Shown: in pieces, positions 2,466-62,931 of the stretch
How positions within the stretch are numbered: position 1 is the first letter of the stretch
Layout of the letters: each line of letters starts with the position of its first letter
Origin: Tulasnella sp. 424
Lineage: Eukaryota > Basidiomycota > Agaricomycetes > Cantharellales > Tulasnellaceae
Assembly: GCA_019633425.1 (NCBI GenBank)
Contig: WSUB01000018.1
Coordinates: 315,699-379,698 of the forward strand
Length of the DNA: 64,000 nucleotides
Reading direction: 5' to 3'
Notes under the pieces: model-generated
Database searches by the model: none
The model's input: the letters and a program-made list of their open reading frames with translations, nothing else
Told to the model about the DNA's origin: nothing
Translations under genes and position numbers: made by a program

Positions 2466-4116
2466 CTATTTTAGTCGCATTCTTTGGAACTCTCCAACCC
2501 CATCAATCTCCTCCAAGAATTCCCCAAATCTGTCTTCCTGGTACTCTCCCCACTCCTCCTCATCGTCGTCAACAGGCGCTATCTCCTCTACAACAAACTT
2601 GGATCCACTTGCAGCTCCAAATCCGTAGGGAAAGTGCTTTCGCGCTTGGGCTGTTAACAACTTGCGTCTCTCTACTAACGAGATATCCGCACTCGCGCCG
2701 GAAAGGTTGGATGAGGGGTCCAACGGACGACTCGTGGATGAACTAATCGTTGGAGCCGGTGCATTCCATGCAGGTCTGTTGGAAGTCGAATCTTCGAGAT
2801 GAAGGACGTATAGAGGAAGGAGGTGCTCTGGATTGAATATAACCCACTCCAGCTGGGAAGGAGAAACATGAGAATCGTATCCTTGAGCGACCTCTGGATT
2901 TCTCCGAAATTGGGACTCGCTACGCCTCATTTCGTATCGACGTCCCATGAGGGCTGCGCAGACAATGACCTTTTGGCCTGGGAGAAGTTTGGGAGATTTG
3001 GCAGTTGTGTCGGCATAACTATCAGAGTCGAAAGGGAGTTTAAATATCCCAAAGGCAGGCTATCAGGGTAATTTACAGTACTTACCTGAGACAGTATGTC
3101 AACCGGGGTGAAGTGTACGTGCCGACACCAAATGTTGAGCCGCATCGAACCTTTACCTCTTCTCCGGTATTTGTCTTCTTGCCTGGGATGACGAATCCGG
3201 ATTGAACGATACTCCCGACGTGACGACGGAGAGTACCGTGAAAGACAACATCGACCTGGGTCAGCTTGTCGACAGCCGCGTCCCTTGAGTCGCACACCAG
3301 ATGATAAGCCATATAAGATCTGACACAAACGAGGAAGGACTCACTGTGCTCGACGAGAACCACCACGCCTCTCTACTTCCTTAGCGTATTTCTTTATCAA
3401 CTTCTCCCGGGCCTCGTTGAAACGCCGAACAAGGGGCGCCCTGAGTACCACTTCGGCATGAAGCAGGCGAAGCGAGGGGGGAAGACCGTCGATAATAGAT
3501 TGAAGAGTCGTCTTGCCCATGTAACTCTGAGCGGTGGTGGAATCTAACCGTTCTGTATGGGACGTAAATAATACGATAAATGTACAATCTATACTGGTTT
3601 AAAATACTGACCAATGTTGTTCACCAGCTGTCTATCCAACCAGTGCTGAATATTACTGATTACGGGCTGGTCGATGTAATCTTCATCGTCATCCGGAACA
3701 ACGGCTGGTTCTTCACAAAGATCCTCCGAGAAAAGGCGGACCTCCTCTATGAGATCTCTCAGAAACACCTCGCCCCTTTTCTCGTTCGCAATGGTATTCA
3801 GTCGAGCCTCTATCTCTGCCATTTTTAGCTTGCTCACTCCCATGGAAGTGGTTTCCCCATTGTCGCATGTCCCGTCTGCTTCTCCGGCAACTTTTACGGT
3901 GTAGGAAGGGGGGAAAGCGGGATATGTAGGAGCAGTCGAAACGTGAAGGTGAAGTGGTCCACAGATGTAATCAAAGGCGTGTCCAGGCTCGGTCACGTGA
4001 AACGTATAGGGTCGTTGATCGTTCGGAGGCGCGGCGTAAGATCCATACTCCAGAGTGATGGCTTGAAATTCGCGAAGTCGTTCGGCTGTGAGGTCGGCGA
4101 AGGGATCGAGGTCCAT
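2466..4116 (-). CDS. PARP-type ADP-ribosyltransferase with N-terminal RWD/UBC-like region
   Basis: This gene is predicted to transfer ADP-ribose from NAD+ to targets. Four exons join into an open frame of 487 codons: 4116-3612, 3552-3345, 3283-3086 and 3018-2466, with introns of 59, 61 and 67 nt, all GT..AG. The N-terminal part (about residues 1-150) has the VTEPGHAF...AFPPSY pattern resembling an RWD/UBC-like fold. The C-terminal PARP core shows the three triad positions: His in VVFHGT, Tyr in GVGTYTSP and Glu in LEWVIFNPEH, so an H-Y-E arrangement is retained. A tail after the core is acidic (DDDEEEWGE). It lies tail to tail with a truncated copy at 993-1893. The family is recognised from motifs; whether it makes mono- or poly-ADP-ribose cannot be told. 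Confidence 0.82.
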
Positions 4117-4812
4117 ATTGGGATGCGGAAAGGTGATGGAGACTGCTTGAACGAATTGAGAAGAAGAGATCGTGAATTATTCTGTGGTGAATGGGATATA
4201 GGGTTAAGCAGCCATGATAGGCCTTGGGGCTATGGAGCAATAGCAGGGCGAACGCTGGACCTTTTAACGCGATGGGTCGTCGGACCCGGTGGAACTTTTA
4301 GCATAGCCTCCGAGGTCCGGCGCGGCGATTTCAGTGACTCCCTATGAGCAGGGTTCTTTGATGAGGTCCCCACGGATCCGGAGTCGAGTCTTAGGCCATT
4401 GACTCATGTCTGGAAGAGTTGCAGAAAGCGAGTGAGGTGGCTCGTTATGGCGAGGTTTTGGGGGAGGTTTTCTTTGATTGAATTACTTTGGGAGAGCGAT
4501 CCTCTCAGAGTAGAACAAAGATATTCATAGTAGATGTTATGGTTCGTCCCATATCGTCCAAAAGCCCATCGTTGAGCAGCGTCGAGGGCGAAAGCGTTGA
4601 CGTTAAGTAATTCGGTGAGAGAGCGTGCAAGTCGACGACCTTCGTGTCCCCGCCGCTCCGGATCACGAAACCCTCCTGGAACAAATGCGCATCAACAAGT
4701 TCCTGGGGTTACAAATCTCTTGAACAACGTCATGTGCTGGTATACTTACATCGTCCACATGTATATATTGCTGATAAAGGTGGCAAAGGGAAACTCTAAT
4801 CCAAGGAGAGAT
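4117..4812. other. intergenic between PARP-like start and SEC17 stop
   Basis: This holds the promoter side of the PARP-like gene and the 3' flank of SEC17. I see no coding exon with a recognisable motif and no repeat. Confidence 0.45.
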
Positions 4813-6061
4813 TTACAGCAGGATGGGTTCGTCCTGGATACCCTTCTTAATCTTCAACAACAGTTGGGTCTTCCAATTATCCAGTTTCGTTACCTGAATA
4901 TTGTAGTAAGTAGTTAGCCAGCCGCTCATGCAAGAGACAACGTCTGACGAAGCGACACCGACCTGGTCGTACTCGTAAACAGCGCCGGTGAAGGCCTCCT
5001 GATCGCCTCTCTCGACAGCTTCTATTAATGCGAGAAGGAATCTGGCTTCTCGAGTTGAGGAGAAAGTGAGGTCCGCTTTGGAATAGTCGTCAAACTTCCT
5101 CCGGGCGGTTACAGCGTCCTGGGCGCGGGACAAACATCAGTGCCCACAGGCCAAATGGGGAGAATCAGCCGGTAGGATGCGCACCTGAGCGGCGAGAGCG
5201 CAAAGACCAGCACGCAACCAGTATTCCTTCACATTGTACTTTGTCAACTGTGAACCGAGAGAGTACTGGGCGACTTCATCGTAAAGTTTGATAGCTTCAT
5301 GCCAGCGATCGAGCTCGACCAAAAGATCCGCTGCATCTTTCTTACATGAGCTCGCGGTGCTGGACGAGGGATTAAGTTTGATGATAAGCATTCAAGGTCC
5401 CTACTAAGATGACATGGCAAACGTACGCTTTAGCGTCCTCCTGACTGTACCAGTCGGCTGCTCGGAGGTACGCTTCGACAGCTTTGCCCACGTCGTGGTT
5501 CTCCTGCAGGTAGATTTGCCCTATCTCCTTCTCTCTATCTGCGGCTTGGCGGAATCTGCCTAGCTTCTGGAGCAGATCAACTGTTTGGCCTAGGGCCGCA
5601 GCTGCTACTGTTGGTGGTGAAGACAGCCGACAACGAAAAGGGTGCGCGAGTGAGCACCCATAGCTGCATAGGACCATGAAGTAAACGGCAACCCACGATC
5701 AGGATACCCTTGCTTGTACGCTTTGGCCGCGTTCCAATACGCATTCGCAGCGTCGTCCCTCTCCCCACCGCTAACGCGACACTCTGCCTCGCGCGTGTAA
5801 GCATCTCCGCTTTCCTTGAATAGACGCTCGACCTTGAAGTTATTCGCCGCTTCCTTGAAGAGGTCACCTACACGGTTAGATTCGAGGAGAAGGGCAATAA
5901 GCGTCGGCTCGGCGTCGTTAGGATCTCATGTTGTAATGAGGGCACCACTCACCAGCTTCCTCATATTTGGATGATGATGACCCGAACCACCCAACACTTG
6001 AGTTGACCCTTTTCTCTGCCTTTGCGAGGAATTCTTGCGCTGGTGACATTTTCGGTGCCAT
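4813..6061 (-). CDS. SEC17: alpha-SNAP / Sec17 vesicle fusion adaptor
   Basis: Alpha-SNAP links SNARE complexes to the NSF/Sec18 ATPase for disassembly after membrane fusion. The start MAPKMSPAQEFLAKAEKR is at 6061 and the first exon ends at 5953; further exons begin at 5867 and 5607. TPR-like helical repeats follow in the expected order: KESGDAYTREAECR, AANAYWNAAKAYKQG, KLGRFRQAADREKEIGQIY, YLRAADWYSQEDA, LDRWHEAIKLYDEVAQYSL, KYNVKEYWLRAGLC, REARFLLALIEAVE. The C-terminus KLDNWKTQLLLKIKKGIQ matches the family's conserved LDxWxxxxLLRIKKxIQ end that stimulates Sec18. Short introns interrupt the chain, including one between EYDQ and VTKLDNW. It is divergently transcribed from KAE1 across a 195-bp gap. 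Confidence 0.92.
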
Positions 6062-7817: not shown

Positions 7818-8660
7818 CTACACCGGCCGAATATAATTTACAAACTCCTTCATCTTCTCTCTTCCACCTTCCACTCCTTCAAACAACTCTTCCAGATCTT
7901 TCATCGTCATCCACTCGTGATCCTCCCAAACGAACCCCGGAGACACAACTTCAGTAATCAAACACCCTACACTTTCCTCCACTCCGTTCTTCGTGGCGAA
8001 AGCCAAGTCTTCTTCGGGGATGCGGCTCATCTTCCATACATTGCTGTGAAGAAGGCGGCCCCCGGATTAGCGGCAGGCCCTCGCCGAGATTCCAAGCTTA
8101 GCACAACTCACCTTCCAACGAAAAGCTGTCTCCTCTCCCCGACTGACACGTCCGCCCCCATTGTTGTGTATGAGACTGAAGGGCCTCCTGAATGGTTGGG
8201 TGCGATGAGGGTGTAACGCGATCGGCCCTGGTGCAGGACATGCATCGTCTAGGGAATGGTACGGTCAGACCATGCCGGGAGGGTTTTGAGGACCAGATTA
8301 AGATGATGGACGACGTACGTGGGATTTGTTACGATGGAAGTACCCTCGCGGCTCCTCGGTCGTCAGCAGGTAATATATTGTTGTTGAAATCGGTCGTGGT
8401 GCTCCGCCTTGCAAACGTCGGACTTGTCAGTGGGAAGCTGAGCGGTCACGATAAACTCGACGGCACCTGCTAGCGGACTAGAAACCACTTCTTCGTCTCG
8501 CTGCGTTTCCGCGAAGTAACCTGCCGCGCTTGTCAGCACCAACCTCCACAACAAGTAGCTTTCCGACCGTCTCACCCCCTTCGATATGTTTCTCCAACTT
8601 CAAATCTTTGACCAGCTGCGAATTGGGAGTCGTATAATCGTACAGAGTGGACCCGGTCAT
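7818..8660 (-). CDS. DUF985 (cupin_5, YML079W-like) protein
   Basis: This is a small cupin-fold protein of unknown biochemical role. The start is MTGSTLYDYTTPNSQ at 8660. Splicing joins KHIEG to GYFAETQRDEE, giving the family's hallmark HxEGGYFxET segment. Next come RPISTTIYYLLTTEEP, the MHVLHQGRSRYTLIAP block, and after another intron MSRIPEEDL and CLITEVVSPGFVWEDHEWMT, matching the conserved VxPGFxxED end. Introns of about 50-75 nt separate the exons. The usual acidic metal-binding positions of classical cupins are not obvious. The order and spacing of motifs fit DUF985 well; the substrate is unknown. Confidence 0.85.
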
Positions 8661-8883
8661 GGTTGGTGATGGAAGGTGTTCGTGGAGGCGTATCCAGCCA
8701 TGTCTCTCTCGAGCTCTTTATACTATTAGGTCTGTGCCAACGGGCATGCGCGGCGGCACCGTACACACCGAGCTTGCTAATCGTTTCTGATGACAAAGCC
8801 CCAGATATGAACATTAAAGAAGAGAGGAGATAGTAATACGAACACGAAAGACAATGGAAGACTTGTACTGAACCCCGGGCAAC
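8661..8883. other. spacer upstream of DUF985 gene, TIM50 3' flank
   Basis: This holds the promoter of the DUF985 gene and the TIM50 3' UTR. No gene is seen. Confidence 0.4.
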
Positions 8884-10762
8884 TACTGCTTCGCCGCAGA
8901 TGCCGAAGCTTGCGTCTCCTTCTCCCCTGGCTTCTGTTCTTCCGGTGGTTTGATGCCGACGCCAGCAAGAGCACCCAATAATGTTCCACCCATTTCAGCC
9001 ATCTGAGCCTCCTTGTCAGCCTCGATCATCTTCTTCAGCTCCTCCTCGTTCTCCTTGAGCCACTGTTGCTCCCGGCGGTAGTATTCTTGAGCTTCCTTGC
9101 GTTTTAATTCAAGGAATGTTGGAGGCGGCTGATTGGGGTCGGTGGACTATATCCAAAACGAGTTAGCGTGGAACGCCGACGGTTGGCTGAGCTCATGACG
9201 TACTGAAGCAGACGGTCCCCCAAATAGTGAGCCAAAGCTGACACGTCCAACGCTGGCGGCGGCCGGGGCACGTTTGCCTTCATTCTTCTTCTCCCAGGCT
9301 TCGATGAATCGCTTCTTGTGATCGGCTTCAACTTTTGCATAGGCATCTGGGATATCCTTGCCCTCGTACGCTTTCAAGACTTGCCGAATGTCCCCTGGTT
9401 GCATGATACCAACAGCTGGATAATATGAGATATGTCAGTGCAGCCCTCTTCAACCGAATTGAAATGTTGCACGCACATTCGAGGAAGGGTATGAGCCGAA
9501 TTAGCCCTCTGTCTCTCGCATCTCCCGTCCATTTAGGCAAGAGGATTGAATTTTCGGGTTGAGCAGAGATATGTTCCGCGTGAGTATCAATCAAGATGAC
9601 TTTTGAGAGATCACGGTTGAGATAAGCGAGATCCTAGCGACATGGCAAGGGTTAGTTGAAATGGTGTTACTGACAACCGAACGAGCCATGTTCACCTTTA
9701 CAATCTTGCCTCGAATGTTGCGCGTGTACTCGCGGGATAATCTATAGACAATGAATTGGCCATAGGGATCGAGCTGCTCGATGACGGGCATAGCGGTCTG
9801 TGGGTCAAATGAAATCAAGGCATCAAAGTTAGTCCAAGGCTCCAAAGCGCGGTGAGGTCGCAAAATCCGGTAAATTGGAGATGACGTACATAGGATTGCT
9901 GAGAGGTGAAGATGACGATTTCGAAGAATTGCGACAGGTAGGCGATGAAATAATCGACGCCGGGTCGTTTGGCTGTTCTCCAACCATTTTGGCGCTATGA
10001 AGGAGGAGCATGTGAGCACCCTACCGCGCCAGTTCAGTGATTGCAAGTCTCACATCCCACGTTGAGGTTATTAGCAAGTCATCGAGCGACAAGCAGAGGG
10101 TATATGGCTTATGTTGAGGCTGTGGTAATATCTCTTTCGAGATAGGCTTGTTAAAGTACTAGAGGGAAGAACGCCGGTGAGCAGGTGGGCCTGCGCATTC
10201 TGGACCTTCCTTCACTCACATCTAATAGATCTCCTATACGGGCATTAGCTCGCCCCACACGAGTATCACCCATTTCAGCGAGTTCGGCCTGGAAGTGCGA
10301 GATACATTAGTGTCCGTGCTGCCGAACAATCCCCGTCAAGGCTCTCGCACTTACATCCCGCTTCAGCTCCTCCTCTCCATCTTCCCACTCGCGTCCCATA
10401 TACACCCAGCTAGCAGCAAGTCCAAAGACTCCCATACCAAACATCACCCTGGTCATAAACTTCCTCCTTCTTTCGATCGAGGACAGCGAGTCCTTAGCGG
10501 ACCTAGCGCCCGTCCTCCCACCCTTGAGCGGATCCGATGCGGGATCAAAGTCAAGAGAGATTGCTTTCGTAGGCTGTGCGGATGACGATGGTTCAGCAGC
10601 TGGAGTTGGTTCCGGCGCGGGAGCTGATTGGGTGGTCTTCTTCGATGAGGACGATCCTGCTGCAGGAGGTGGCGGCGGGGCCTGAGTCGCGAGGCATCGG
10701 ATAGCGGGTGACGCTCGAGTCGCTGCGAAGCGTAAAGATCTTGAAGCCAGGATTGAGGCCAT
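8884..10762 (-). CDS. TIM50: TIM50, receptor subunit of mitochondrial TIM23 translocase
   Basis: Tim50 sits in the inner membrane with its C-terminal domain in the intermembrane space, where it passes presequences from TOM to TIM23. The N-terminus ([18 protein letters not shown]) is an amphipathic Arg/Ser leader. A proline/alanine-rich matrix segment follows, then the single membrane span [17 protein letters not shown]. The FCP1-like domain shows [79 protein letters not shown] and [22 protein letters not shown]. The catalytic first Asp of the phosphatase motif is replaced by Ser (SLDDLL), in line with Tim50 being a pseudophosphatase. The C-terminal tail is coiled and charged ([16 protein letters not shown]) and stops at 8884-8886. 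At least five introns are evident. Confidence 0.95.
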
Positions 10763-40675: not shown

Positions 40676-41550
40676 CCAGGCAGAATCCACCCATCAGTAA
40701 CCCGCTCACCATTGTAGTCAGGTAAACCAGACTCCGGTCATTACTCACAACGGGGTAAACACCTAGTAATGATGGGAGTCTGGGATCTCCCACAGAGTGT
40801 GGATCGAGGTGCCCTCTAGGGTCCAATTTAAAGGGTTAGGTGAAGGGATTTAAAGGGTCACGGGCTTCTGTTGCCATGCCCGCCCATATCACGACCTGCT
40901 GTGCCACCCTCCTTTCCATGGCCACTCAGAGACTCGCTTTTTTTCTTAGAGCTGTAATTCTATTGGACATTTAACTATATACAATACTTTCTGCCATGAA
41001 AGAACTGCCTGGAGTGCCGGTCAACTCGCGTTCGGACAAGCGCTGCGGAAAAGGATGCGCCAACAGGCAAGGCAACGCGACCCTTTATTGCGAAAAACCT
41101 GACCCAACCCTTTACTGACAGCCAATCACGTCGGCAGAAAATGAGTCCGTGCCTGGCTGGGGGGGCTCGTCGATCCACTCTAACGAGCTGATCCCAGACT
41201 ACACCATTGCATGCCCCCAGCCAACAGAGCCCATTGATACTACAAACGAGAGGCCAGAAAACTCGCCAAGGATAATCAAGACAACTTCGACAGCGTCCTA
41301 GTAGAATCCCTGCTTACACCACAGCCACCTCGTCTATCCAAGCTCCCTTGACACTTCCGACAATCAGTATACGCACGCCTCAACAAGAAAGGGGAATTCA
41401 AAGTAACAAACTTCGCCGAACCAATCAACAAAGAGCCAGTACACATCATCAAAGTTCAAGGACTCACCAAGAAATGAAAAGACCACATCATCAACATATT
41501 TCCCCACGCTGAACCCTCATTTCTCGAGACACACGTAATCATTCCCTATC
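40676..41550 (+). mobile_element. Gypsy 5' leader, proximal part
   Basis: This 875-bp stretch lies between the 5' LTR and the nested TIR element. No TGG-type initiator-tRNA primer site follows the LTR; chromoviruses of this group often self-prime, which may apply. Stop-ridden plus-strand frames (for example ARKLAKDNQDNFDSVLVES near 41,250) hint at an old coding piece that I cannot identify. Confidence 0.5.
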
Positions 41551-41725
41551 GTACGGTAGGCCGGGAGTCCAAGGACAAAACGTGCGCCACAACAATCTCC
41601 CTTCTCACCTATACCCTTCCCACCTCCCCTCACTTCATTATTTTGAAATAGGACCTCGGAGTCACCTAATGCTATACAGGGGCCTGAAGGGCATCCTTAT
41701 CAGTTGATGATGCATGTGCTGGCAG
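41551..41725 (+). repeat. left terminal inverted repeat of the 5.9-kb element
   Basis: Reverse complement of 47,293-47,475, beginning GTACGGTAGGCCGGGAGTCC and including AATAATGAAGTGAGGGG (as reverse complement) and GATGCCCTTCAGGCCCCTGT (as reverse complement). Small indels separate the two arms. Confidence 0.85.
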
Positions 41726-42051
41726 ATCTCGCAACCTGCTGCGGATGGGCTGTCTTCAATATCTCTCTTTGCTAGAGCTATACCGATCCAAAAGGCTCGC
41801 TAATAAAGCCAGATACATGAGTAGCTGCTGTACTGTGGAACGATTGGCCGTTGAGGGCTCATAATTTCTGGTCACTGTTAGGCAATTTTCATTCAGACTG
41901 CCCCCATCACATCCAAGCATACTGCGCCCTCCGCTATAGCCCTTAATTTTTACCAGACTGTCCGGTCAGGTATCTCACATGCTGCTCCTCACGACGGACA
42001 TTACTGACCAGAGTGGCCTTAGGGGTGTATCCCTTTTTGGTCTTGGGGAGC

Positions 42052-42136
42052 GCCATTGTAGCTCAGCTGGAAGAGCGTGGGACTGTAATGGATTACGTAA
42101 ATCCCAAGGCCATCGGTTCGACCCCGATTGAAGGGA
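42052..42136 (+). tRNA. tRNA-Tyr (GTA)-like gene with short intron
   Basis: D arm GCTCAGCTGGAAGAGC, anticodon stem TGGGA/TCCCA, loop CTGTAA with anticodon GTA at 42,085-42,087, an insert of about 12 nt after position 37 (nuclear tRNA-Tyr genes normally have an intron there), and a T arm ATCGG-TTCGACC-CCGAT with a good B box GGTTCGACC. The acceptor stem GCCATTG/TGAAGGG has two mismatches and two G-U type pairs, so it may be a decaying or mobile copy. It lies inside the TIR element, upstream of the alpha-kinase gene. Confidence 0.72.
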
Positions 42137-42527
42137 CATTCTTTTGTTTTCCATCTTTACCTTCGGATCCACAGGGGGACTGAACCCGGATCAGGAGACA
42201 GTAAAAAAAAAGGGCAGGGTTCCAATGAAGTCAAGACCATGCTGACGATTGTTAGGCTCTCTAATCACCCCAAATATCAATTCATGAGTGTAGTACCATT
42301 TTCTCTTGCTTGGGGTGGTGCAACATACTGAAATTCGCTTAGGTCCCCATCCGTGTTTTCATTTACATCGACTGGCATCATCACATGTTTCACTGTATAT
42401 GGATCTTCTATCAAGCCCAGAAGACCAAAGATGGGCCAAACTCTTCACATCTGTTACCAAGGGCTCTTTCCTCTACCTTGTGGGAATTCATTGATACCGA
42501 CGCTTTCGCTGGGGCTGCAACTGGAGC

Positions 42528-42534
42528 TATATAA
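42528..42534 (+). promoter_or_regulatory. TATA box of the alpha-kinase gene
   Basis: TATATAA lies about 290 bp upstream of the ATG and is followed by a long CT-rich tract (42,560-42,790), the usual layout of a basidiomycete core promoter and 5' UTR. Confidence 0.55.
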
Positions 42535-42822
42535 GGCTGACCACTTTTGTTCAAGTCAAGGACATCCTCACTCTTTCACTTGCACCTTCGATTCCAACAC
42601 CCACCCACTCCTTCTCGCTCAACTCTCTCTTTATCCTCCCTCAGCCTCTGTTCGGAACTCGATCATTTTTTGATACCTCGTGTCTTTCCATATCATCGCA
42701 TTACCCAACCTCCTGTTAAAATCTTCGACTCTTAGATCATAGACTTCCCTTCCTCTCTTTCTCTCTCCACCCCTCTCCTCTCAATATCCTCAGCATCCAA
42801 AGCCTTGACAAGGCAGAACCAG

Positions 42823-45338
42823 ATGGCCACCCCTCTGAATCCCCCGGACGAAGACTTGCTCCCTTGCGGGGGGCATAATAATGAGCTCAATGGCTGCAGC
42901 TGTGTCTTTGAGTTTAGTCCGTGCTTACGCGATCCCGGTTTATGTGCACAGTGCAGGAAGTTCAACAATGCACCTATGGAGAAGGAATGGGGCTGAATTC
43001 TAGTAAGTAGACATTATGTTCCTACTTGGCATGATATTTCCGTCACCTGACACCCCTCTTTCCTTCCCCGAAGCGGCTGCCTTTCTGTACTAGCTGCGGT
43101 GTTTGCCGCACATTTGTAGAAGATCCGTGTGGAGCCTGCCAACAGAGTGAGTTCTTTACTTGGTGTTAACCGTGCTCCATCTGTCTAACGAACTGTACCC
43201 CAAATTCAGAGATCTTAGGGGTCAATCCTACGAGATCTGCGACAGCTGCCAATCGCGCTGAAATCCTCGATCGCCAAGTTCACGCTAATCAAGTGTCCAG
43301 CGTCTGCCCTCAAGATACCACTAACCGTATTCTGTCTGGCTCTTCAACAACCTCAAGTATCGGCCCCTCAACTCCTGCTGAGGATATTCTGGCATTACGA
43401 GTGGCTGCTCAGTCCAGCGGAGCAGCTGAGTCAAAAATAGCGATCCAGTGGGCCATTCGGCTTGCCAACACTTATAGCAGCATTATCAGCAAGGAAAATG
43501 GGGCCATGGGCAAGACCATGCAAGCCCTTGCTGAGGGTACCTCCACGCAACGTGAGTTTGCAAAGAGCTTGCCATTTATTTTCTCCCGCTAATAGGTTTT
43601 TGTGTGAAGATGTTCTTGAATACATGGTCCAAGAAAGCCAAATCGCTTGGAAAGAAGCAAATAATATGTGGCCTCTGCACCCGTGAAGTAAACTGTCTCA
43701 TCTTGGCTTTTAGTGGCTTACCATTTCGCTGTGGCCCAGTGACTACTGTACTGTTCGGGGTCACAAAAATACGACATTCCCTGAAAATGGGGTCGATACC
43801 TTACTCAAGATGTACACATGGCAGAAGACCAACAACCCATCTGCAATTGTGTCAAACTCCTCAACCCGTTCAAAGGGTTTGAAGATGCCTGGTCACTCCA
43901 CCATGCTTCTTGAGCTGCTGGTTTTCCTGGATAAGGTATGCGTCTTTTTGCATGCGCTGACATGCAATGAAATACTTAATCCGATTGATGTAGTACAATA
44001 TCCACACTGGCGGAAGTGGAAACTCGGACTCCGATGAGGATGGAGGGGCTGACCGAAAGTGCCGGAAGTGGACTGCTGGTGGTAGAGTTAGCAAGCGAAG
44101 TTGTGGTGAAGAAGGTCAGTCTGCATACTTATTGGTCATCTTGCAGCTCTTAATGGCTGCTTGTAATTGATAGGCAGCGACTTCCTCCCACTAACAAGCA
44201 AGTTTGTTAGTGAAGGTCGGGGAAATGGGTTGCGTCAGGCAAGCCGGGGTCATGAGCCGGACTATACCAAGATCCGATTCCGGAGAACCGAGTTCTGGAT
44301 GGAGGAGGATGAAACCTTGATACCGTTGAAGGAGATGCTGACGAGATGGGTTGGCTTTGTGATGTGCCTATGGTATTAGAGGCTAGGGATGAAGGAAGGA
44401 GCAAAGTGGCATACACGGTTCATACACGGTTTGTTTTTTGCTTTCATTCCTCAGATATGATGCTAACAGGTGGATTGATACCTAGCTCAAGATCGGCAAT
44501 GCTTCCTTTGTCGCGAAGGAAGTTGTCAATCTCGGTACGAAAGGCAAGGTTACACCAAACCGGGCAAAAGCGGCTTGAAATCGCAAAACAGGTGATGCAG
44601 AGTTTCAAGGTACTTGCACGAGCGAATGATGTACACTTGGGTGAGTACCGTTTGATTCACTTGCAATTCTTTAACTGACTTGTTTCTGAATTCCAGAACC
44701 GATTGACGTCACTTCAGCCTTCCTCGCCACCCTGGTCCCTCCCTCAACCCTTGAACCGACCTCACCGCTTGATGACATGGACGGGGAAAGTATCCAATCC
44801 ACCAATACTTGTTACTTTCTGGTTGAACCCCTCCATTCAACCACGACTGTGAGGAAATTCAGCCGCACGTTGGGAGCCCATGCCACCTCCAACATTCTTT
44901 CCAGGACTATCGCCGCATTTGCTCACTATGCTGCCCAATTTCTTGCTGCTAAGATGGTATTTTGTGATCTCCGAGGTTCGTTCACACTCCATTCCTGACA
45001 GATTGTTTGCTAACCTGTTTTGGCTACTGTGACAGGATCATATCACAAGTCAGAAACCGAAACAATCTTTACCTTATTCGATCCTATGACGCATTCGATT
45101 AAAGGGTGCGAATAAGCGTGATTTATGGTTTGCTTTTTTATTTTCTAATCCGTCCATTGCAACTAGGGATTCGGGTCCTGGCGATCATGGTGTGGAAGGT
45201 ATCAAGGCCTTTATTAAGTCTCACAAGTGCTCACAACACTGCAAGCAACTAAAGTTAGCAGGAAAACCTCGTCTCAACAATGCCGCCAAGGAGGCTGCAG
45301 AAGCTGAAGGCGTTGACTGGGAAGAAGAAGATGATTAG
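42823..45338 (+). pseudogene. alpha-kinase (MHCK/eEF2K type) gene, probably decayed
   Basis: The C-terminal exons carry the alpha-kinase signature: IAAFAHYAAQFLAAKMVFCDLRG, then LFDPMTHSIKGDSGPGDHGVEGIKAFIKSH and CSQHCKQLKL, i.e. the conserved GxGxxGxxGI-type loop and zinc-module Cys. The N-terminal exons (from ATG 42,823) have paired Cys clusters (CGGHNNELNGCSC, LCAQC, FCTSCGVC, CGACQ) suggesting zinc binding. Several lesions appear: an in-frame TGA at the end of exon 1 (just before the donor near 43,001), a TAG in the lobe near 44,484, and a frame change between VAKEVVNLGTKGK and RLEIAKQVMQSFK near 44,560. Stop of the last exon is 45,336-45,338. It is either a pseudogene or a gene with unusual splicing. 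Confidence 0.7.
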
Positions 45339-45789
45339 ATCGGCAACTGACAGTCCTACAACTCAAGCTGCTGTAATTTATCCCTTTTCTTGGTGATACC
45401 CCCACTTCTCATAATTCTACCCTTCCTTTTATCTGGTTTCCTGCCACACACTTGCAATCCCTGCTTCCCCATTTACTCTATATACACCTTGTAATACTCT
45501 ATCGAATCACTAATAGCCTGGTGGCATCGCCCTCAAACATAATCCATTACCTGATACGTTCCCATGCCCCAAAGATCTTCGGGTTTCCATCGATTGCTTA
45601 TCTGTCTGACCTGGTTAAGATAGAAGCATGGGCAGATCCTACTGTGATCAGTTTTCTCATGGTGATCGTTCCGGATTGCAACCACCACACCTATTTTCAC
45701 CCAAGCGCAGCATGCCTGAAAACAATGCTGAAGGGATGAACCAACATGGAGGGCGTATACAGTGTTAAGAGATTCACTCCGGTATGGCA

Positions 45790-46967
45790 GTAGACGAGAA
45801 TGACTCAGGACTTGTTTCATCAGGGCCAGCCGACAATATCCTCAAGGATACATTGCAAGGATACGCAACAGAGAACAATGGAAATGGCATACCGATTGAT
45901 CAACAGCTTCTAAGAATACAAAGGGAATTTGGCATCAAGCCATCGTAAGGATTTTCGAACCACGTTCAAATCTTGTGACCAAATGATCTCCTGGTATAGT
46001 TGATCCGCATTCATGGCCAAGCGCTCACGGCTCAAGATCAAAAACCGTTCGCATGAACAACACGGTCCGAGATTCTCCGGCTGATATGGCACAAGCTATC
46101 ATTGACCTAAAGGCCAACGATCCTGAAGGTTGATAGGGTGTTGGGAGTGCGAAACAGTGGTTAGCAAGCTCGGGCACATTCTTGGCTCGGTGTGATATTC
46201 CCCCACTCAATATTAGCTGTATCTCTCGCTGGCCAACTAATAGCGTCTTCTCTCAGGACCGATATCAGAGAAATTATGCACGATTATTTTGACAATGAAT
46301 TTGATGATTGAATGCCCGGTGGTCGAAGCAAGGTCAAGACTTTCCAGCCATTGTCCAAATCCCTAGCACTAGAAATACTCCGATCGAGAGTGTGTGGAGA
46401 TGGCAGTGAGAGGGCGAAGGACACAATCTCCATGGCATAATCGAGGAAGGAGTCACTGCAGGTTTACTTGTGCCAGGCATTGCGCTTCATGCATTCGGTT
46501 TCATTCCTTTTCCTTGGCCACTACCTCAGTGTCTAACATGTTGGGATAATGTTTAGGGGTGTGTTCAACTGGCTGTTCCTACCACTGGTCCAGGATCAGC
46601 TCAACGCGTTCCAGGATTACTGGAACTCGCACAAGGTAACAAAGCAAAGAAAGAAAATGCTCCCATCTGGAACCTCACCTTGGAACCTTATGAGTGTGCC
46701 AGAAACAGGGAGCTCTACAGCACGTAATTGTTGGATCAAGGTCAATCCAGAGAGCGTGAGGCGATGGCGAGAGCAGCTGGGGGGGTTACAGCGGCGAGAT
46801 GAAATTATGGTGTTCACATCGGAGGAATTTCACGTGGAAGCAGACGCTGCCTGGATTGCCATTGGGAGCCCTCTTTTCACCTTGTCAAATGTGTGGAGTG
46901 TCTTTTCCCAAGTTGTAGAGCAGATTCAGACTCGATGTGTTGTAGTACTTAATCCCAATGTGAACTA
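45790..46967 (+). pseudogene. integrase-core-domain protein, DDE core deleted
   Basis: Pieces of a fungal integrase-core gene remain: GPADNILKDTLQGYATE, ADMAQAIIDLKANDPEG, DIREIMHDYFDNEFDD with a stop then MPGGRSKVKTF, and the well kept C-terminal exon FNWLFLPLVQDQLNAFQDYWNSHK and LPSGTSPWNL (46,549-46,967). The middle, where the DDE catalytic residues should be, is missing, and stops interrupt the rest. The EFDD[stop]MPGG site would be EFDDRMPGG if TGA was CGA. It could be the relic of the transposase of the surrounding TIR element, or another cargo gene. Confidence 0.65.
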
Positions 46968-47292
46968 AAATCCATCGCAATTTCTGCTTTCGGGTTTAGA
47001 TGTAACGCCAAAGCGCCAGCATGCAGCAGATATCCTCAACTCAAGCCGGATGGCGAACCTTCCAGGGGTCAGCTAAAGGGCGTTTAGCAGGAGGGAGGCC
47101 CATGACTGTCAGTCCAGATTGTAATCTGGGGAGGGAGCGACATGCTTTGAACCCACATATGGAATACCAGCGCAGCCGCCCAGAGCACTATGTTACCTCA
47201 TGAAGAGTACATACATATACCTGACCTTACTTATGGAGGTCACATTGGGCAGAGGTAAGAGTGACTTCAGGGATCCGCGATGCACGAAGACC

Positions 47293-47475
47293 TGCAGGCA
47301 CATGCATTATCAACTGATAAGGATGCCCTTCAGGCCCCTGTATCGCATAAGGTGACTCAAAGGTCCTATTTTGAAATAATGAAGTGAGGGGAGGTGGGAA
47401 GGGTATATGGGTGAGAAGGGAGATTCTTGTGGCGCACAGCGCGCATTTTGTCCTTGGACTCCTGGCCTACCGTAC
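47293..47475 (+). repeat. right terminal inverted repeat of the 5.9-kb element
   Basis: Reverse complement of 41,551-41,725, ending CTACCGTAC. Sequence inside it (before 47,293) no longer matches the left arm, which fixes the repeat length at about 180 bp. Confidence 0.85.
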
Positions 47476-47548
47476 TATCAACCAATCCAAGCCCAAGAAA
47501 TCAAAGCCTACCGACTACTCCCCACTGAAACATTCATCGAACCACAAA

Positions 47549-48703
47549 ATGAGCCAGAACCAAGGATTAGGAGGGACCTGGATGACGGATCTACTAGGAG
47601 CACTCCCGAACCCAGGGGCCCCAATGGCGACCTCTGCCCCTGGTCCCCAGCCCCCGAACCACACCCCCAACCCAGGACCACAACCACGAGCACTGAGCAC
47701 TCAGCAAATCGATGTGACAACACTCCTAGGGCTCATAGCTGCGCTCAATGCGGGGAATGCGATGACTGGGGCTGCTGCAAGGACTGCAAAAACTGGGAGA
47801 GTCAAAATTAGAGAACCAGAAGTCTATGACGGGAAGAAGCGAGGAAGAGCGGTGGTTAGGTTCATCCTCAACTGCGAACTCTACTTCACTGCAAGACGCA
47901 ACAACTTTAACCAAGAAGCAGACCAGATCCGGTTCACCATCAGCTACCTAACAGACACGGCCCGAGCCTGGGTAGAACCCATCCTAATCGACAACCTAGA
48001 CAACCAAAACGACCCGGAATCATACAACTGGGACACCTTTAAAACAGCCCTCGAAGGAGCATTTGGAGATACAGACCGAGAAGGAACCGCAATACACGAG
48101 TTAGAAGCCTTGAAGCAAGGAAAGAGACCAGTGTCGACCTATGCGTTGGACTTCCAAAAGATCAAAGCCAACATCTCCAATTGGGACGAAAGTACCTTCG
48201 TTCATTACTACCACAAAGGCCTTAGCGAAGATATCAAAGACTACCTAGTCACGCAACCGGTCCAAACCCGACTTGATACTTTAATCAAACTCTCTATTAG
48301 AATTGATAACAGGATCTGGGAGCGAAAGAAGGAAAAAGAAGAGTCCGGTACCCATCGTCCCCCACCCCCACGCCAGCAATCTCCTCACTCTCAACCCAAT
48401 CCCGCTCCTAAGTCCAAGGCTCCTAATGCCTTCGCACACACCTCCCCAGTCCCCATCCACGTCGACGCAGCCAGAAGAGGACCGTTGAGCGCAGCAGAAA
48501 AACAAAGAAGGCAAGAACACAATCTGTGTTACTATTGCGGACAGGTGGGGCACAAGGCCGAAGTTCACGACCTCAAACGAAGAACCCAAGCTGTTGTCAA
48601 AACCCCTACCATTGCCGCCACCACTCACACCACTCCCCCATCACTCATTGAGTTTGATCCTGTCGCCGCCCCTTCTGCTTCGGGTTTTTGCCACAGCATG
48701 TGA
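47549..48703 (+). CDS. Gypsy Gag polyprotein
   Basis: Structural protein of the retrotransposon. The start MSQNQGLGGTWMTDLL is at 47,549; upstream codons in the same frame belong to the leader. The capsid-like core shows YDGKKRGRAVVRFILNCELYF, RIRFTISYLTDTARAWVEP and FGDTDREGTAIHELEALKQ, typical of fungal Gag. Near the end is a zinc knuckle CYYCGQVGHKAEVH in which the fourth Cys is replaced by His. The frame is open for 384 codons, so Gag is better preserved than Pol. Pol begins in another frame, overlapping by 16 bp. Confidence 0.88.
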   Translation: MSQNQGLGGTWMTDLLGALPNPGAPMATSAPGPQPPNHTPNPGPQPRALSTQQIDVTTLLGLIAALNAGNAMTGAAARTAKTGRVKIREPEVYDGKKRGRAVVRFILNCELYFTARRNNFNQEADQIRFTISYLTDTARAWVEPILIDNLDNQNDPESYNWDTFKTALEGAFGDTDREGTAIHELEALKQGKRPVSTYALDFQKIKANISNWDESTFVHYYHKGLSEDIKDYLVTQPVQTRLDTLIKLSIRIDNRIWERKKEKEESGTHRPPPPRQQSPHSQPNPAPKSKAPNAFAHTSPVPIHVDAARRGPLSAAEKQRRQEHNLCYYCGQVGHKAEVHDLKRRTQAVVKTPTIAATTHTTPPSLIEFDPVAAPSASGFCHSM

Positions 48704-51700
48704 TGACTGTGCCATCGCGTGCTAATACCCCACGTCATGTTTTAGGTACCCATGTATTCTCGTCAGATATGGTCAATAGGAATCGTATGCCGCTTGAACC
48801 ATCAACCCATCTGATAGTACCAACCAACTTAACGACTAGGCAAGTCACAGCCTACCCTACCGCCATGATTGACTCAGGAGCCACATCCGAGTTTATCAAT
48901 CAAACGTTCATCAATGAAAATCATATCCCCACCCGACAAAAGCAATTCCCATGCCATCCTGTGGCGATCGACGGACATTCCCTTGGGGTAATAGATCGAG
49001 AAGTCAAAGGACGATTGCGGATGGGAAACCACGAGGAAGAGGTCACGTTAGACGTCGCAAACATCGGCCGACACCCTACAATCCTCGGTGCCCCCTGGTT
49101 ACATCGGCACAGCCCTTCCATCGACTGGAGGACACGACGAATAGTCTTCCAAGACCCTACTGCTTGAACCAATGCCTGGATCTCCCCATTGATGTTCTGG
49201 GAAAAAGGAATGGACAGCCAGATAAGCCCCCCCCTGCCCCTTCCTTCTTGGACCTCCCCGAGGAAGACGATATCGCAGGAACCAGCATCTCTGCCAAGAT
49301 CGCAGCCGAGTACAAAAAGGAAGAAGTCAAACCTCTGGTGGAGACTGTTCCCTGGGAGCTACATGAGTTCCTAGATGTGTTCCAAGAACCAACGGGAGAC
49401 GCTATACTGCCCCCACATCGCCTGTACAATTGCAAAATCGACTTTGTTCCAGGAAGCGAATTACCTAAAGCAGGAGGCATGTACGCGGGCTCGGCGCAAG
49501 ATCTTGCGGACCTGAAAGCATGGATTGATGAAAACCTTCAAAAGGGATACATTCGTGAATCAAAGTCACAAGTAGCCTCCCCATGTTTCTTCGTTGGGAA
49601 AAAAGACGACTCGTAATTGACTACCAGCGAATCAACAACATCACCGTAAAAGACCAATACCCAATTCATCTCATGTCGGACCTGATTGACCAAATATGAG
49701 GAAAGAAGGTGTTCGGCAAACTTGATTTGCGGTGGGGCTACCATCTTGTGTGGATAGTGAAGGGAGACAAATGGAAGACTGCGTTCAAGACAAGATTTGG
49801 GTTATTTGAGTGGGTGTTCATGCCATTTGGACTCTGCAACACACCTGCCATCTTTCAACGGTTCATGAACCATATTCTGCACGACCTATTAAACGACGAT
49901 GTCACCAACTACCTGGATGATACCATGGCGGCCACCGTCACACACCAACAGAATATCGAGGTCATGAAAGAGATTCTGCAAAGACTCAGGGATAACCAAC
50001 TGCACTGTCGACCGGAGAAAAGCGAATTCTTCGTGACAGCAACCGAATTCCTGGGCCTCGGAATCATAGAACATGGCGTCACCATGGATAAGCATAAGGT
50101 GGAAGCAATACAACAATGGCCGGCACCCCAAAAGGTCAAAGACGTTCAAACCTTCCTGGGATTCGCAAATTTCTACTGACGATTCATCAAAGACTTTGCT
50201 AAACTATCCCAACCTATCACAAATCTCCTCCGGAAAGACGTCATGTGGGATTGGACTACAGTTTGCCAGCAAGCATTCGATGCACTAAAGGAGCATTTCA
50301 CCACGGCCCCAGTACTAGTACACTTCGACCCCGATCTCCCAGTCCTACTCAAGACGGACGCCTCAGGCTACGCATACGGTGCCGTTTTATCGCAGAAAGG
50401 CTCAGACAGCAAAGTGGACCCGGTAGCTTTCATGTCGAAATCAATGATGGATGTCAAACGGCGATGGCATATTTACGACAAAGAAATGCTGGCTATTGTT
50501 CGGGCACTCCTGTATTGGCGTCATTACCTTGAGGGGGCAAAATTCCCCATCCAAATCCTCACTGACCATGAAAACCTGGAATACTTCAAGAAGGCTCAAG
50601 TATTGAACGACCGACAACACTGCTGGCTCCAAGTCCTCCAACAATTCGATTTCCTTATCTCGTATCGTCTTGGATCCAAATCAGGGAAACCTGATGCACT
50701 CTCCCGCCGACCGGATCACCGCCCTGAGGAGGGGGCAGAAGAACCGTCCCTAACGCTTTTACCACTGTCACAAGTCGAAGAAGTAAACGCAGTGGTGCTC
50801 TTACCATCATCACGAATCCTAGAAATCAACGCAGATGACAACAATGAAGAAGAATTGCGGGACACGGATCTTGAAATAGTGCAGCAAATCGCAGCAGCAA
50901 TCCGGACAGACGACACAGTGAAAGCAGTACTGGCGTTCTTCGAAAGAACCAACACGAGCACTGGCAAAAACATGTCAGAATGGACCTTCAAAAATGAAAT
51001 CCTTCGGTTCAGGAACAGGATCTACGTTCCGAACAATGACAACATCAAGTGAAAGATTCTGGAACTCTATCACGATGCGATCAGCGCAGGACACGGAGGG
51101 CAAGCCAAGACTCTGGAATTGGTATCAAGGGGATATCACTGGCCATCAATGAAAAGTTTCGTCAACAGATACATGGAAGCATGTGATACCTGTAGAAGGA
51201 ACAAGCCAAACCACGTGCCGCCTGTTGGGCTCCTTAAACCACTCCCTGTACCAACCAGTCCATGGCAAGACGTATCGTACGACTTCATCACCAAACTCCT
51301 GACCACGCAGCAGGGACACGATACCATTCTAGTAGTCGTCGACCGGCTCCTAAAAGAAGCCCACTTCATTGCCACAAAGGAAGCAGGCCTGGACGCAGAG
51401 AAAACCGCAGAGCTTTTCATCACCAATGTATGGAAACTACATGGATTACCCTCTCGAACGGTATCGGATCAGGGACCCCAATTCAATGCCCCATTCATCT
51501 GTGCACTCTTCAAAGGACTAGGGATCAAGCCAAATTTCTTGACAGCGTATCACCCACAGACTGACGGGCAAACGGAGCGTACCAATCAAAACGTAGAAGG
51601 ATTCATTCGTCTCTACTGTAATCATCGACAAGACAATTGGGACGACTTACTGCCCTTTGCGGAATTTGCCTACAACAACTCGATCCACTCTTCCATTGGC

Positions 51701-52399: not shown

Positions 52400-52726
52400 T
52401 GTGACGACCTTGTCACATCTCGGATACTTCTGGATTCTGATACTGAGTTGACACGTCAGCGCCTCAAGGCTTGTCTTGTATTGGTGATGTCCTCATGTTT
52501 CTCAGTCAGCGCCTCATGTTGTACCTCCACTCACTTACGTGTCCACACTCATTAGCCATTCCTTATTAGTCTCTCATTGTCTATTTAAGAGAGCAGAATG
52601 AGGAGGGTTTGTTCATCATTCCGCCTTCTGTTCACCAATCTCATAGTTCCTCCTCCTTGACACTTCTAGCACCTCTTGACTACAGCGAGCGCCTTACTTC
52701 CCTTGTTCATTGTCAAGATCGTTACA
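52400..52726 (+). mobile_element. 3' LTR of chromodomain Gypsy element
   Basis: It begins TGTGACGACC and ends GATCGTTACA, 327 bp, with TATTTAAGAG as a probable TATA element. It is preceded by a polypurine tract and followed by the right copy of the 5-bp target duplication (52,727-52,731), after which the MULE coding sequence resumes. Confidence 0.9.
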
Positions 52727-62582: not shown

Positions 62583-62931
62583 TTTGGCAGAGTGAGATCA
62601 CTAGGCAAGAACGTTGCACTAGCACAATGGTCGAGGAGTAGACTATGATTGAGTAGACAAGAGGCAGAATGAGGAACAAACCTCCTCATTCCACTGTACT
62701 TAAATACTAACAAGTGGCTGTGACTGGAATGTCCCGGTATAGTAAAGAAGGTGCTGGAATAAAGCGGAAAGGCTGACATGTTGCATGAGTAAGAACAATG
62801 AGGGATGCGTGAGGAGATGAGTAAGAGACGTATGGTAGTGGTGAGGCACTTGAGAATGAATGTGGGGATAGTCAATCGATCATAAGGATCACATGATGGA
62901 GAAAGGTGAAGCATGTGATGAGGTTGTCACA
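62583..62931 (-). mobile_element. candidate solo LTR in reverse orientation
   Basis: Read on the minus strand it starts TGTGACAACCTCATCACATG, close to the Gypsy LTR start TGTGACGACCTTGTCACATC, and later contains GAATGAGGAGGTTTGTTCCTC, also shared with those LTRs. The far boundary is uncertain and I found no target duplication. Confidence 0.5.

Follow-up and report, generated by a model that had tools for sequence, protein, structure and literature searches.

A probable IS3EU-superfamily transposon with an alpha-kinase gene in Tulasnella sp. 424

In Tulasnella sp. 424, an agaricomycete of the order Cantharellales, a Gypsy leader is interrupted by a 5.9 kb segment that is bounded by inverted arms and carries three genes, one of them an alpha-kinase. 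What kind of unit is this, and does the kinase belong to it? The window (the whole 64,000-nucleotide stretch that was analysed) corresponds to C90:315699-379698 of the 46.8 Mb genome, and the genome-wide searches took in this assembly. The segment is best explained as an old and inactive cut-and-paste transposon of the IS3EU superfamily, inserted in the Gypsy leader, the second gene of which would be a resident and helpful alpha-kinase (probability roughly 0.9).

Anatomy of the element and its insertion site

The sequence-only reading of the window had described arms of about 180 bp bounding the segment, and the alignment bears this out. The arms are about 184 bp long and agree at 165 of 184 ungapped positions (first 195 alignment columns), which suggests an old insertion. 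They are made up of three pairs of inverted repeats (41548-41587 with 47439-47478, 41582-41613 with 47406-47437 and 41603-41729 with 47288-47414) that are 90-94% complementary. With slashes marking the junctions, the termini and flanks read ..CTATCG/TACGGTAGGCC...GGCCTACCGTA/CTATCA.., which allows two readings: TATC on both sides of an element with G..C ends, or a 6 bp target-site duplication (TSD), CTATC(G/A), matching at 5/6 positions around TACGG..CCGTA ends. The flanking TATC noted earlier is present on both sides, but by analogy with the sister elements the 6 bp reading is the probable one. In 100 base shuffles of the 9 kb region no pair reached at least 15/24 matches in the terminal inverted repeat (TIR) together with a 5/6 duplication, while looser pairs arose at 0.19 per shuffle.

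When used alone as a genome query, the left Gypsy flank found itself and one other copy (C196:20194-20407). The Gypsy on C196 matches the leader to the left of the segment and then directly the leader and gag to its right (Table 1), with nothing between. Uninterrupted across the junction, it represents the pre-insertion (empty) site, and its target sequence, TTATCA, is equally compatible with a 4 bp TATC and a 6 bp duplication in the window. The leader does close up without the segment, as had been predicted, and the combination of TIRs, duplication and empty site confirms the proposed mobile unit. Further matches to the C196 leader region at window positions 52400-52726 and 62641-62706 point to more Gypsy fragments downstream.

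Table 1. Features of the window (window positions) and elements elsewhere in the genome (contig and positions)
Feature	Position	Strand	Remarks
IS3EU-type DNA transposon, inactive copy	41552..47474		5,923 bp; TIRs, flanking duplication, empty site
Left TSD, CTATCG	41546..41551	+	Last base differs from right copy
Right TSD, CTATCA	47475..47480	+	
Left TIR, starting TACGGTAGGCCGGGAGTCCAAGGACA	41552..41735	+	Inner boundary approximate
Right TIR	47288..47474	-	Inner boundary approximate
Host Gypsy leader, left of insertion	41202..41550	+	82% to C196 copy
Host Gypsy leader and gag, right of insertion	47476..48980	+	80% to C196 copy; Retrotrans_gag
tRNA-Tyr-like copy	42052..42136	+	Intron; two broken acceptor-stem pairs; Rfam tRNA 42.6 bits
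Alpha-kinase gene, multi-exon, decayed	42823..45338	+	PF02816 in exons 44690-44998 and 45090-45338, above Pfam cut-off
Transposase remnant (rva_4-like)	45800..46968	+	Catalytic E region and C-terminal part recognizable; boundaries approximate
C367 element	C367:4391-10476		TIR 65 bp at 95%, TACGG ends; TSD GCCGTT 6/6
C218 element	C218:16606-23433		TIR 75 bp at 93%, TATGG ends; TSD CACCAG 6/6
C336 element	C336:2083-7833		Arms 50 bp at 94%, ends TGCGG..CCGCA; TSD CCGGAC 6/6
C50 element, transposase-bearing	C50:7907-15103		TIR 226 bp at 89%, TATGG ends; TSD AACGTC 6/6
C387 element	C387:2687-4421		1,735 bp; 18/24 TIR matches; TSD CTTTTA 6/6; transposase match with internal stop

All three cargo genes are read in the plus direction, in agreement with the first description. 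The tRNA-Tyr-like gene is recognized by Rfam, but ARAGORN reports no tRNA at this position and the copy is probably a pseudogene. The two other genome matches are tRNA-Tyr(GTA) genes (C405 and C11, with introns of 18 and 12 bases and scores of 54.6 and 55.1 bits). The idea that such elements regularly contain a tRNA, or use one as a promoter, was rejected: ARAGORN found none in the C218, C50, C367 and C387 elements or in two pieces of the C336 element, and blastn gave no tRNA-Tyr-like match there. The copy is probably a one-off passenger.

The naming of the alpha-kinase is upheld by two exons above the Pfam cut-off. Near 44.57 kb the homology is spread over two frames with too little space for an intron, an apparent frameshift. 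Pieces of the gene between 42844 and 45332 can be aligned with the 620-residue protein FRC00_005055 of Tulasnella sp. 408 (50% identity across the query; tblastn pieces 34-62%), the only homologue returned by a protein search that gives one protein per query after scoring the 7,995 candidates sharing most words. FRC00_005055 covers positions 21-185 of the 185 in the alpha-kinase profile (E 1.7e-19) and weakly matches alpha-kinases of solved structure, namely eEF2 kinase, myosin heavy-chain kinase A and a TRP-channel kinase that we take to be TRPM7 (E 0.011-0.18).

The integrase core named in the sequence-only reading is weak when taken alone (E 0.0065, below the Pfam cut-off, and absent from a later frame scan), but its C-terminal part is related to transposase copies on C182 (33%), C336 (36%) and C367 (25%). 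Judged by this homology to relatives in the same genome, the gene is the wreck of the element's transposase, as had been supposed. The motif NTPIESVW corresponds to the catalytic E region (weak alone) and is followed by a stop codon (by eye); the two catalytic D regions have no match in the remnant. Because the transposase is truncated, the window copy is unable to move itself.

Sister elements pairing a transposase with an alpha-kinase

Integrase-core transposases and alpha-kinases are paired at four other loci of this genome (C367, C218, C336 and C182), so that the recurrence of kinases with such transposases, anticipated from the window, is seen at five loci. The three of these four that were read (C367, C218 and C336) all have TIRs and perfect 6 bp duplications (Table 1). 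In 100 base shuffles per locus, strong pairs of TIR and TSD arose at 0-0.02 and looser ones at 0-0.44 per shuffle. The kinase is above the PF02816 cut-off in the window exons, the spliced C367 model and the spliced C218 and C336 pieces.

In C367 the spliced models of the transposase (plus strand, PF24764 E 1.3e-9) and the kinase (minus strand, PF02816 E 1.7e-10) lie tail to tail, and the kinase model shares 93% identity, over the query part, with FRC04_008036 of Tulasnella sp. 424. The arrangement is also tail to tail in C218, with the transposase on the plus strand (PF24764 E 2.4e-69, spliced piece) and a kinase-like gene on the minus strand (PF02816 E 6.7e-6 spliced; the single exon, at 0.0017, is below the cut-off). 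D-D-E motifs were seen, by eye, only in these two. Both genes of C336, which was read outside bases 3200-6000, are on the plus strand; its transposase was identified by homology rather than Pfam, and its kinase has PF02816 E 1.2e-6 spliced (the single exon, at 0.047, is below the cut-off). Both genes of C182 are on the minus strand, about 2.6-3.1 kb apart, and are recognized by homology only. Gene order therefore varies, with three arrangements among the five paired loci: the two genes have the same direction in the window, C336 and C182 and opposite directions in C367 and C218.

The kinases are strongly diverged, being 15-26% identical to the C367 piece (one row translated by eye). As a genome query the C367 piece matched only itself, the other kinases being too diverged. 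The window kinase gave marginal matches to C336 (E 0.0068) and C182 (E 0.012), and the C336 piece gave a clear match to C182 (E 6.4e-13).

The genome-wide Pfam searches give lower bounds, as the kinase of C218 and the transposases of C367, C336 and C182 escaped them. Seven kinase loci are clear (the window, C367, C218, C336, C182, C53 and C444), five of which have a transposase partner; an eighth, on C396, is weak (E 0.037). No transposase was found near the C53 and C444 kinases, and at C53, the one of the two loci that was read, no TAYGG pair occurs across 8.4 kb. These two loci (C53:94751-94939 and C444:135168-135732) are candidates for host-kept kinases or element relics. The genome-wide search matched PF24764 on nine contigs, on three of which (C218, C50 and C387) a TIR and TSD were found; at C311, C77, C440 and C335 stretches of only 3.2-3.6 kb each were inspected, and no TAYGG pair was found at C11 (11.4 kb) or C193 (8.5 kb).

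The alpha-kinase as resident gene or captured cargo

A published counterpart of this pairing exists. The TET-carrying (TET+) IS3EU elements of seven rust species have 6 bp duplications, TIRs of more than 30 bp and TAYGG..CCRTA ends, and one further TET+ family is reported from Tuber indicum; in all TET+ families the TET gene lies between the transposase and alpha-kinase genes, which are oppositely oriented (Kojima, 2025; PMC12730594). The Tulasnella elements resemble them in their 6 bp duplications, TIRs and TAYGG..CCRTA-type ends, in the alpha-kinase that they contain and, for C367 and C218, in the opposite orientation of the genes. The combination of transposase and alpha-kinase is thus already in print for TET-carrying families, mostly of rusts, and the earlier statement that no description of it was known has to be withdrawn. 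Within the passages available from the open-licence literature on alpha-kinases or IS3EU with transposons in basidiomycetes or rusts, the combination was seen only in that paper.

The Tulasnella elements differ from the TET+ families, and are new, in their Agaricomycete host, in the same-direction gene order of three loci and in having no TET between the two genes; the tRNA-Tyr-like copy, seen in the window element only, is also new. The spacing between transposase and kinase leaves no room for TET (about 50 bp from stop to stop in the C367 models, about 0.4 kb in C218 and about 0.5 kb in the window). No TET was found by a frame scan of the plus frames of the window, of C367 5616-8786 (all frames) and 8600-10478 (minus frames) and of C218 20300-23433, a scan weakened by having also missed the transposase exons of the window and C367. 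The known range of alpha-kinase-bearing IS3EU elements thereby grows by an Agaricomycete host and by elements in which no TET separates the two genes.

That related elements in the same fungus carry the same gene pair suggests that the kinase belongs to the transposon and not to the fungus. It is unlikely that the kinase instead came from the host in one or a few captures and is carried as cargo without a role, an explanation that overlaps with the IS3EU reading and differs from it on the kinase only. Gene capture by fungal DNA transposons has been published (TET/JBP; PMC12730594), and no transposase was found close to the kinases of C53 and C444. However, at the five loci both the kinases and the transposases paired with them are diverged, and three gene arrangements occur, whereas one late capture would yield near-identical kinases, and the published TET+ families show the same pairing (PMC12730594).

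In working relatives of the IS3EU-type window element, to judge from the superfamily, the TIRs would be bound by a DDD/E integrase-like transposase, which would excise the element and insert it at a staggered cut; filling-in of this cut would give the 6 bp duplication. The alpha-kinase would be a resident gene whose product helps the element, its most likely substrate being a factor of host silencing or chromatin, or else the transposase itself. An action against silencing is perhaps conceivable by analogy with the proposal made for TET (Kojima, 2025; PMC12730594).

We give about even odds to a broader view, for which the evidence was gathered within the Tulasnella sp. 424 genome: that basidiomycete IS3EU elements, in rusts as well as Agaricomycetes and whether or not TET is present, have had the alpha-kinase as a resident gene since ancient times, and that the 'family expansions' reported for rusts and mushrooms are largely transposon kinase copies, kept since they counter host silencing or regulate transposition. 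A Microbotryum paper describes alpha-kinases as highly expanded in rusts; of the ten genomes in its table, two have 79 and 39, a third has five and seven have none, and the passages concerned make no link to transposons (PMC4469406); a table in a wheat-rust comparison lists the alpha-kinase family with 2.34 (P 3.5E-02), a figure taken here as enrichment (PMC5295586). In its passages on IS3EU, a Ganoderma paper only counts these elements (PMC8955403). A link between the alpha-kinase expansions and IS3EU is our inference. If the resident-kinase view is true, the expansions in rusts and mushrooms would in part be transposon counts. Where alpha-kinase counts serve as a trait of these fungi, the findings suggest that transposon annotation should be consulted. 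If a DNA transposon retained its kinase through this much divergence, that kinase would stand out as an unusual candidate for a host-silencing regulator encoded by a transposon, a question that can be tested with the C367, C218 and C336 elements.

Superfamily assignment and related termini

The assignment was made by comparing termini, TSD length and gene content with published descriptions, in which IS3EU elements have TA..TA ends and a TSD that is usually 6 bp (PMC10045372). TA..TA ends of the TAYGG..CCRTA form are present in the window and C367 (TACGG) and in C218 and C50 (TATGG), while C336 departs from them (TGCGG..CCGCA). The 6 bp TSD is perfect in C367, C218, C336, C50 and the short C387 element and matches at 5/6 in the window, with the 4 bp TATC as alternative. 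An integrase-like transposase lies between the TIRs, with PF24764 in C218 and C367 and a homologous remnant below the cut-off in the window. As counter-evidence, the C410 derivative described below shows a 7 bp match, the C95 derivative none and the window 5/6, and the alpha-kinase is not universal among the elements, none being found by Pfam in six ORF pieces of C50.

GingerRoot, which is not separated from IS3EU, has a 6 bp TSD and ends that are mostly TA..TA and at times TG..CA (Kojima & Bao, 2023; PMC10045372). The Tulasnella elements share the TSD length, and the TGCGG end of C336 matches the TG..CA type, but GingerRoot is described from a clubmoss and the passages concerned mention no kinase. 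Styx of Zymoseptoria, searched for with a 36 bp TIR and a TSD length of 6, is likewise fungal, related to IS3EU and equipped with extra ORFs; one of these is a DUF3577 gene, two others have GATA and CCHC motifs, and the passages concerned mention no alpha-kinase (PMC10853768).

The sequence-only reading had brought up Ginger-type elements, and a Ginger1 or Ginger2 transposon with a 4 bp TATC duplication is a very improbable alternative. It has in its favour that TATC immediately flanks the window element if its ends are G...C, that the transposase is of the integrase-core kind and that published Ginger duplications are 4 or 4-5 bp (PMC10045372). The perfect 6 bp duplications of C367, C218, C336, C50 and C387 speak against it. 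Ginger ends are TGT, and those seen here are TAYGG or TGCGG; the Pfam model that fits the transposase best is rva_4, rve reaching no better than E 0.19 (in C218). The Ginger assignment was rejected on TSD length and ends; taken alone, the window is compatible with 4 bp. A chance neighbourhood, in which an unrelated TIR pair brackets a kinase pseudogene and an integrase relic, is barely credible: short derivatives with related TIRs do exist (C410 and C135), but the empty site demonstrates insertion of the full 5.9 kb in one piece, unless the C196 Gypsy lost the segment through precise excision, and three more elements hold the same gene pair between TIRs with perfect TSDs.

The IS3EU-type arms were also sought directly. 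As findings that would count against the idea of a kinase-spreading unit, the sequence-only reading had named an arm unique in the genome and kinases never flanked by such arms, and taken literally the results come close to both; the wider superfamily evidence saves the idea. Both genome matches of the 184 bp arm are the element's own two ends, and no other kinase was found in this genome between copies of that arm sequence; three other kinases are enclosed by arms that differ from it but are of the same superfamily type. When up to two mismatches are allowed, the 26-base terminus has 20 genome matches and the reversed control none, whereas for the 20-base terminus with up to three mismatches the counts are 21 and 12, so that weak matches are uninformative.

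A related arm as query gave 33 matches, including six inverted pairs about 1 kb apart, three of which had their ends inspected. These three appear to be non-autonomous derivatives belonging to the same TIR family: C410 (1,048 bp) has the 7 bp flanks GCCGCAC/GCCGCAC, C135 (1,100 bp) has the 6 bp flanks GTAACC/GTAACC and C95 has no flanking duplication at the inspected ends.

Several further arrangements were noted. At C50:7396-15811 IS3EU-like elements are nested, the 7,197 bp element (TSD AACGTC) lying within an 8,416 bp element with TATGG ends (TSD TATGAG), the 24-base ends of which are those of the 1,735 bp C387 element. At C193:21.5-27.5 kb the PF24764 match is flanked by inverted similar stretches (71-75% over lengths of 75 and 287 bp) that lie about 5 kb from each other and lack TAYGG ends. 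Related TIR termini (GTACGGTATGCC type) with a common outer flank (CCCGAATGCGG type) occur at C394:624133, C403:9475, C206:6886, C51:103523 and C443:142807, where the arm has apparently been copied within another repeat. Two TIR ends in the same orientation, 5.5 kb apart at C146:312190 and 317698 and with the similar flanks TAAGTGC and TGAGTGC, perhaps reflect a duplication that included an element end.
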